In this document: piece by piece, positions 59,341-61,336 of the stretch | Numbering within the stretch: the first letter of the stretch is position 1 | Layout of the letters: each line of letters starts with the position of its first letter | Assembly: GCF_024298885.1 (NCBI RefSeq) | Contig: NZ_CP101166.1 | Location: 2,789,149 to 2,853,148, forward strand | Reading direction: 5' to 3' | DNA length: 64,000 bases | Source: Haloglomus halophilum | GTDB lineage: Archaea > Halobacteriota > Halobacteria > Halobacteriales > Haloarculaceae | The notes under the pieces: model-generated | What the model was told of the DNA's origin: nothing | What the model saw: the letters and a program-made list of their open reading frames with translations, nothing else | Database searches by the model: none | Program-made: the position numbers and the translations under genes

Positions 59341-59773
59341 TGCCGGTCGCGCTACTGGACACCAACGCTGTTGTTCGCGAGCGCCAGCGCCCGCGACGAG
59401 TACCAACGACCCGGCGATGGAGATCGTCCGGGCGGTGGGCCACGGTGACCTACCCGACGGCATCGTCACCAACTACGTCCTCGCGGAGACGCTCAATCTC
59501 GTTCGCGAGCGGCTGGGTCCGGCGCCCGCGACCGGGATGCTCGACCGACTTGTCGAAGGGGCTCATTTCGATACCTCGCACGCGCCGCGTGCGGACTTCA
59601 CCGCCGGGCAGGCGCTCTTCCGGAAGTACGCGGACCTGTCGTTCGTGGACGCGACCATCGCTGCCTACATGCAGCGCGAGGACATCGAGTACCTCTACTC
59701 GTTCGACGACGGCTTCGACGGGGTCGACGGGGTGACGCGGCTGGAGACAGCGGACAACTCGTTCAGCAAATAA
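59340..59773 (+). pseudogene. PIN-domain toxin (VapC), broken by two frameshifts
   Basis: The PIN domain is spread over three frames. MPVALLDTN (first catalytic Asp) is read from 59340, LLFASASARDEY from 59368 in the next frame, and PAMEIVRAVGHGDLPDGIV with LAETLNLVRERLG and the last acidic LSFVDATIAAYMQ from about 59411 in the third. Removing one base at each of two places (near 59368 and near 59405) restores a continuous 143-residue VapC including DTNVLFASASARDEYHDPAM. All catalytic acids remain. A sequencing error is possible but two would be needed. Confidence 0.75.
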
Positions 59774-59833
59774 GACAAATATGGTCGGAATAATTATGTA
59801 ATATATTGTATATGTGAATTTAGTTGGAAATTA

Positions 59834-59855
59834 TCAGCCTTTGATGTTGCAGACC
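59834..59855. repeat. right direct repeat (end of intact rtcB)
   Basis: TCAGCC-T-TTGATGTTG-C-AGACC is the complement of the last seven codons and the stop of rtcB. It matches 57605-57626 at 20 of 22 positions and marks the other edge of the low-GC island. Confidence 0.75.
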
Positions 59856-61336
59856 GGGAACGTCCGCGCGACCCGGTCCCCGATGCCGAGCGCGTCGCTC
59901 ACCCGGACCACCTCGTCCACGTCCTTGTAGACGCCGGGCGCCTCCTCGGCGATGGTGGCGCCCGACGAGGCCTTCACGTAGATGTGCTCCTGCTCGCGGA
60001 GGTCGTCCTGCACGTCGCCGCCCCAGTAGTCCTGTTTGGCCTGGGTGCGGCTCATCAGGCGGCCGGCGCCGTGCGCGGTGGAGCCGAACGTCTCGGCCAT
60101 CGAGTTCTCGCCGCCGCGCAGGACGTACGACCCGGCGCCCATGCTGCCCGGGATGATGATGGGCTGGCCCACGTCACGGTGGGCCTTCGGGACCTCGGGA
60201 TTGCCCGCCGGGAACGCCCGCGTGGCACCCTTCCGGTGGACGAACAGCTCGCGCTGCTCCGTGCCGCCCGCGCCGTCGGGGACCTCGTGGAACTCCCGCT
60301 TGGCGATGTTGTGGGACACGTCGTACAGCAGGTCCATCCCCAGGTCCTGCCAGTCCGCGTCGAACACGTCGGCGAACACCTCGCGGGTGCGATGGGTGAT
60401 GAGCTGCCGATTGACCCACGCGAAGTTGATGGCGGCACACATCGCGCCGTAGTACTGTTCGGCGAGCTGGGAGCCGGCGGGCGCCGCGGCCAGTTCCCTA
60501 TCGGGTAACTGCGCCAGGAGCCCCTGGTGGGCCTGCTCGATCTTCCGGAGGTAGTCCGTACAGACCTGATGGCCCAGCCCCCGGGAGCCACAGTGGATGA
60601 GGACGACCACCTGGTCCGGTTCCAGTCCGTACGCGTCGGCCACGTCCTCGCGGTAGATGTCCGTGACACGCTGGACCTCCAGGAAGTGGTTGCCCGAGCC
60701 GAGCGAGCCCAGCTGCGTGCGGCCCCGGTCCTTCGCCTTCTTCGACACCGCGTCCGGGTCGGCGTCGTGGCGCATCCCCTCGTCCTCGCAGTGGGTCAGG
60801 TCGTCCTCGACGGCGTAGCCGTGTTCGAGCGCCCAGTCGACACCCCGGTTCAGGACCGACTCCACGGTCGAGATGTCGCTCTCGACGACCCCGCCACCGC
60901 CGAGGCCCGAGGGGACGGCGTCGAAGAGGGCGTCGACGAGTTCCTCCTCGCGGCCGCGGAGGTCGTCGTAGGAGAGATTTGTATTTATCATTCTCACTCC
61001 GCAATTTACGTCATAGCCCACCGCTCCGGGGGAGATACAGCCCTCTTCTGCATCTATTCCGGCCACCCCGCCGACCGGGAAGCCGTAGCCCTGGTGGCCG
61101 TCGGGCATACAGATGGCGTACTTCCGGATGCCGGGGAGGTGGGTCGTGTTCCGGAGTTGCTGGAGCGTCTTGTCGTTCTTGATCTCCTCCAGTAGCGACC
61201 GACTGGCGAGGATGCGGGCCGGGACGCGCATCCCCTCGGCCTCGTCCTGGGGGATCTCCCAGACGAACTCCCGGCGCTTCTCGAGGGTGATGCCGCCGGC
61301 GTCGAACGTCTCGGGGTCGTCGGCCGTGTCGCTCAT
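59834..61336 (-). CDS. rtcB: RNA-splicing ligase RtcB
   Basis: A 500-residue tRNA-splicing and RNA-repair ligase joining 3'-phosphate (or 2',3'-cyclic phosphate) and 5'-OH ends with GTP and Mn2+. The hallmark motif GYDVNCGVRM holds the metal-binding Asp109 and Cys112. Further conserved parts are GSLGSGNHFLEVQ, VVLIHCGSRGLGHQV, YDVSHNIAKRE, PAGNPEVPK and the GTP-linked histidine region GSTAHGAGRLMSRTQAK. The protein ends FPVCNIKG. The start at 61336 is set by MSDTADDPETFDAGG. A patch of AT-rich codons (60973-61060) surrounds Cys112. The frame is open far upstream, but that stretch is antisense to the next gene. Confidence 0.96.
   Translation of the reverse strand: MSDTADDPETFDAGGITLEKRREFVWEIPQDEAEGMRVPARILASRSLLEEIKNDKTLQQLRNTTHLPGIRKYAICMPDGHQGYGFPVGGVAGIDAEEGCISPGAVGYDVNCGVRMINTNLSYDDLRGREEELVDALFDAVPSGLGGGGVVESDISTVESVLNRGVDWALEHGYAVEDDLTHCEDEGMRHDADPDAVSKKAKDRGRTQLGSLGSGNHFLEVQRVTDIYREDVADAYGLEPDQVVVLIHCGSRGLGHQVCTDYLRKIEQAHQGLLAQLPDRELAAAPAGSQLAEQYYGAMCAAINFAWVNRQLITHRTREVFADVFDADWQDLGMDLLYDVSHNIAKREFHEVPDGAGGTEQRELFVHRKGATRAFPAGNPEVPKAHRDVGQPIIIPGSMGAGSYVLRGGENSMAETFGSTAHGAGRLMSRTQAKQDYWGGDVQDDLREQEHIYVKASSGATIAEEAPGVYKDVDEVVRVSDALGIGDRVARTFPVCNIKG
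60973..61060. other. AT-rich codon patch in rtcB around the Asn-Cys junction
   Basis: From 60973 to 61020 only 18 of 48 bases are G or C, and the patch uses ATA, AGA, ACA, AAT, GCA and GAA codons rarely seen elsewhere in this window. It encodes GYDVNCGVRMINTNLS and is centred on the Asn111/Cys112 junction at 61003/61004. Confidence 0.8.

Follow-up and report, generated by a model that had tools for sequence, protein, structure and literature searches.

Inteins are found in the RtcB proteins of Pyrococcus and Methanocaldococcus, where they sit at the same insertion point as the inteins analysed here, the catalytic Asn|Cys junction; the latter, however, are haloarchaeal. Homed introns and inteins are flanked by co-conversion tracts. 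Barzel et al. (2011) modelled the homing cycle and included empty alleles, termed X', with lowered susceptibility to homing (PMC3229294). According to this model, escape to X' is costly to the host when the target is a conserved motif, and models attribute the persistence of inteins partly to the inability of hosts to change such motifs cheaply (PMC3229294). In Haloferax, efficient homing of the polB intein was demonstrated in vivo, and single synonymous changes in the target are tolerated by endonucleases (PMC3024317). A study on the Haloferax MCM-a endonuclease describes survivors of cutting (‘escapers’) with point mutations in the target site, and a site with mostly synonymous divergence that seemed to be cut less (PMC10643990). 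The full text of a 2014 survey of 24 haloarchaeal intein alleles does not mention ‘rtcB’ (PMC4071816).

The window, a stretch of 64,000 nucleotides of the Haloglomus halophilum genome (contig NZ_CP101166.1, forward-strand positions 2,789,149 to 2,853,148), encodes an RtcB without an intein between Asn111 (61004–61006) and Cys112 (61001–61003; Table 1). A first-pass annotation had noticed an AT-rich patch within this GC-rich gene, and the patch is a real, non-random feature. The lowest-GC stretch of 48 bases (60968–61015) had a GC content of 0.354, compared with 0.682 for the gene, and A/T endings, present in 42 of 485 synonymous codons gene-wide, were densest in codons 103–120. Chance clustering was ruled out by a permutation in which AT and GC endings were shuffled inside amino-acid classes (p = 1e-4 for the densest window, 20,000 trials). 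The rare codons AGA, ATA, ACA and AAT listed in the annotation were all there: codons 93–97 read GGA ATA GAT GCA GAA, and GGA, TAT, GTA, AAT, GGA, AGA, ATA, AAT, ACA and AAT were all among codons 104–120. The patch had also been described as centred on the junction, which was only roughly so, as it consisted of a core and downstream block (codons 103–120) and an upstream block (codons 93–97). The normal RtcB motif was kept at the protein level (EEGCISPGAVGYDVNCGVRM), with Val110 in place of the usual Ile as the sole amino-acid departure in the core. A few empty alleles shared Val110, which was absent from all 42 occupied alleles compared.

Table 1. Coordinates of rtcB features in the window.
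Feature	Position	Strand	Basis or remark
rtcB, tRNA-splicing ligase, 500 aa, intein-free	59834..61336	-	translation; Pfam RtcB PF01139, E 1.4e-162
AT-rich synonymous patch, rtcB codons 93–121	60973..61060	-	GC 0.477 vs gene 0.682
Densest block of AT-ending codons, codons 103–120	60977..61030	-	10/17 synonymous codons AT-ending
Asn111-Cys112 junction AAT|TGC, empty	61001..61006	-	haloarchaeal RtcB inteins insert exactly here
Presumed homing target core, codons 109–114	60995..61012	-	occupied alleles uniform, empty alleles diverse

Once filtered for quality, the rtcB genes recovered by a search of 392 haloarchaeal genomes and of GTDB contigs made up a non-redundant set of 186. While 142 were insertion-free, 44 (L025, L026, L027, L041 and L073–L112) carried an insertion exactly between codons 111 and 112. 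The proposed tie between the patch and an intein insertion point was thereby borne out, and patches were concentrated at empty sites in polB and MCM as well. The patch occurred in some alleles only, rather than with the same codons in all relatives of an intein-free clade. The inserts were 465–487 aa long and free of stops (44/44), and the Pfam intein splicing domain (PF14890) was matched in the three that were scanned. All 44 had Cys1 (C1) and the terminal Asn (N476), followed by Cys+1, and ended in Ser-Asn (consensus VVSN) instead of the usual His-Asn. Both LAGLIDADG motifs (GDG, FGAE) were present, with the acids D153 and E260 invariant, and there was no mini-intein among the 44, which suggests a maintained endonuclease. 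The similarity of the inteins was nearly uncoupled from that of their host genes (r 0.09), indicating that the inteins move horizontally. Public annotation labels one haloarchaeal rtcB gene as ‘intein-containing’; plasmid records contained one haloarchaeal intein-bearing RtcB, the remainder being mostly remote bacterial ones. Two of the 44 intein-bearing genes were remote and were omitted from codon comparisons, leaving 42.

To describe the respelling across sequences, the chance of an A/T ending was modelled for each codon from the amino acid and the sequence, with the position's own frequency fitted. Overdispersion (OD) was the excess between-sequence difference over that of independent codons, in 15-codon windows. 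In intein-free rtcB genes (n = 142), OD peaked at codon 112 with 3.11 (median 1.02, 95th percentile 1.6). The identical scan was run on 84 polB and 53 MCM sequences, with each window evaluated only from the sequences that had no intein there. The four top peaks in polB (614, 292, 483 and 581) were the intein sites a, d, c and b, and those in MCM (342, 364, 418 and 399) lay near sites a, b, ~409 and d. PolB site d and two of the MCM sites (near 360 and 409) were placed from small numbers of insertions or from the ends of matches. The site labels follow general usage, together with the insertion positions in these genomes. When the intein sites were circularly shifted, no shift matched the observed OD in rtcB, polB or MCM. 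Conservation was rejected as a confounder, since its correlation with OD was weak and conserved windows distant from intein sites were flat (mean OD 1.0–1.1). The intein-free control genes EF-2 and CDC48 (30 haloarchaea each) had OD maxima of 2.0 and 1.97, compared with means of 3.0–4.6 at intein sites in 30-sequence subsamples. Across haloarchaea, empty intein sites are generally marked by respelled patches, and the rtcB patch is one instance of this class-wide pattern. At the isolated sites rtcB, polB-c and polB-d, the AT state of the core correlated with flanking codons only to about ±10 codons (~30 bp). Recoded rtcB alleles also had GC-neutral swaps (GGC to GGG, 8/41 vs 0/41; GTC to GTG, 10/41 vs 1/41). 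The pattern is therefore a departure from the common spelling, mostly towards A/T in a GC3-saturated genome.

Occupied rtcB alleles had AAC in 79% and TGC in 95% of cases at the junction, compared with 53% and 81% in empty alleles, in which AAT reached up to 47%. Synonymous diversity across six junction codons was compared between empty and occupied alleles at six sites. It was lower in occupied alleles at five of them (empty/occupied: rtcB.39/.22, polB-b.45/.32, polB-c.45/.30, MCM-a.60/.44, MCM-d.47/.10), and polB-a, which showed no such contrast (.51/.58), speaks against escape. Ranked among windows of the same gene and sequence set, the contrasts stood at.006 (rtcB),.010 (polB-b),.13 (polB-c),.004 (MCM-a) and.0015 (MCM-d), so that four of the five were in about the top 1%; the combined p of ~3e-6 is approximate because windows overlap. 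A recoded core (at least two AT endings in codons 109–114) was found in 51 of 142 empty but 6 of 42 occupied rtcB alleles (Fisher p.008). Independent pairs on the rtcB tree had the predicted sign without reaching significance, both for recoding (4.9 opposite vs 2.0 same) and for AAT111 (7.3 vs 1.7, median p 0.11). One pair of sisters, 94% identical elsewhere, consisted of an occupied allele with the common spelling (L098) and an empty, respelled one (L157). The AT excess at MCM-a was equal in occupied and empty alleles, and polB-a likewise lacked an AT contrast at the junction. The outer flanks were AT-enriched in occupied alleles too, and three of these (L080, L094 and L077) combined AT-rich outer flanks with a common-spelling core. 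Genus-level exposure was rejected as a predictor of recoding, which was not commoner in genera with occupied rtcB (16/50 vs 23/88, p.56).

From these sequence comparisons we infer an escape mechanism, and we give an even chance to the reading that the patch arose when synonymous respelling eroded the homing site in an empty rtcB allele. Haloarchaea have a full-length intein of the LAGLIDADG type circulating at the Asn|Cys junction. Its endonuclease would cut the common GC-type spelling, and exposed lineages would gain from several synonymous changes that jointly weaken recognition and the local homology for repair, with the catalytic motif GYDxNCG staying intact throughout. Dense patches would be needed for this, since endonucleases tolerate single synonymous changes (PMC3024317). 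As third positions are ~90% G/C, nearly any synonymous change would lower the GC content, and an escape allele would therefore look AT-rich without being foreign. L080, L094 and L077 may, as a conjecture, be once-respelled alleles into which an intein homed again, converting no more than a very short tract, and short-tract co-conversion could account for part of the uniformity in the core of occupied alleles. The width of the wider footprint (~60 bp) argues against escape, as it exceeds the typical endonuclease site of 14–40 bp. The AT-enriched outer flanks of occupied alleles, the equal AT excess at MCM-a and the lack of a genus-level exposure effect also speak against it.

The first-pass annotation had explained the patch as a co-conversion scar, left when an intein homed together with flanking codons of an AT-richer donor and was later lost precisely while the foreign codons stayed. 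Scar and escape make opposite predictions at the junction. Co-conversion tracts resemble the footprint in that codon differences are centred on the insertion site, but they are expected in occupied alleles, and there at their strongest, whereas the junction was respelled mainly in empty ones. The location of the patches exactly at intein sites would suit a scar, as would the horizontal movement of the inteins, the AT-rich outer flanks of intein-bearing alleles and the finding that intein-bearing and empty sister genes often differ most near the insertion site. Flank similarity also followed intein similarity, although weakly (codons 100–110, partial r 0.22 and 0.15) and within the range of other windows. 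However, AT codons were missing at the junction itself in occupied rtcB alleles: the alignment of relatives suggested in the annotation did reveal inteins at the site, but the occupied alleles, as the possible haloarchaeal donors, had GC-type junction codons. The shortness of the tract (~±10 codons) is a further point against a scar, as is the absence of excess haplotype sharing, since distant rtcB patches, conditioned on AT content, shared codon choices no more than control windows did. A single shared imported patch was rejected, because an apparent peak in rare codons common to distant genera vanished after AT conditioning and clade thinning. A viral donor was also rejected, since a search of IMG/VR returned no relative of rtcB or its intein. 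The donor scar is weaker than escape by synonymous changes and was not favoured; we consider it rather unlikely.

Two further explanations dispense with escape. Repeated endonuclease cuts might have been mended with further copies of the chromosome or divergent DNA as template, causing raised local substitution or short conversion tracts without selection for escape. A footprint that is centred where the cuts fall and fades within ~30 bp, raised differences between sister pairs near the sites, and altered outer flanks in both occupied and empty alleles are what such repair would leave. We nevertheless regard it as improbable, because amino acids were preserved and the innermost codons of occupied alleles were quieter, not noisier. 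Deamination of resected ends would give an A/T strand asymmetry, and this type of mutagenesis was rejected because none was observed (T 267/428, 281 expected). More improbable still is a DNA- or RNA-level constraint, or a translational effect, of active-site motifs independent of inteins. Some codons, among them TGT at codon 100 and GGA at codon 104, were indeed favoured whether or not the allele was occupied, but a motif constraint does not explain why the patch is missing from some alleles, and neither conserved windows off intein sites nor the two conserved P-loop control genes (EF-2 and CDC48) showed such heterogeneity.

Escape by synonymous respelling resembles the X' alleles of the homing-cycle model in that an intein-free allele is altered at the target. 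It differs in that escape is costly in the model, whereas the rtcB changes are nearly all synonymous and are found in natural genomes, with similar patches at many sites. In X' alleles homing is reduced, as it would be in the haloarchaeal ones under escape. As the respelling is synonymous, most of the cost of X' (PMC3229294) would be avoided. The Haloferax escapers and resistant mcm alleles likewise carry target-site changes after cutting by a haloarchaeal MCM intein, but the escapers were found on plasmids and the MCM-d case concerned an amino-acid (Pro/Ser) effect on splicing; a class-wide synonymous footprint is not described in the sections used here (PMC10643990). That empty sites bear such a footprint across the class suggests that escape from inteins can be cheap in nature. 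The footprint allows the host–parasite conflict over inteins to be quantified in genome sequences and parallels, in nature, target-site resistance to gene drives. It is quite possible, and we propose it tentatively, that synonymous rewriting of the homing site is a common defence of core genes against inteins in haloarchaea, that natural escape alleles are frequent, and that past exposure, as well as intein sites yet to be discovered, can be predicted by reading the footprint in sequence alone.

The genome of H. halophilum itself has inteins in polB (polB-b) and MCM (MCM-a). In its MCM gene (G000, contig C1, ~520454–523942, minus strand; loci L206 and L207), 11 of 18 codons at the empty MCM-b site and 8 of 17 near site ~409 were AT-ending, which fits escape. 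Its empty polB-c and polB-d sites were in ordinary spelling. In two other MCM genes (L336 and L337), the MCM-a insertions were just 519 and 540 bp long, and by their length are probably mini-inteins without an endonuclease. Two lesser OD peaks, of 1.9 and 2.4, were found at MCM codons 632 and 651, near the C-terminus, where no intein site is known.

Many genomes of the window's own family (f1, mainly genus g3), as well as G390 of the window's own genus, were without a full rtcB match; the best E-values in such f1 genomes, within the 392 haloarchaeal genomes, were 1e-4 to 1e-8. From these matches, the presence of rtcB seems to be patchy among the near relatives of this genome. Codon 100 (61037–61039), TGT, and codon 104 (61025–61027), GGA, are favoured class-wide against the GC3 bias of the gene. 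An AT-rich gap with a GC content down to 27% was located at and just past the 3' end of rtcB (59760–59860).
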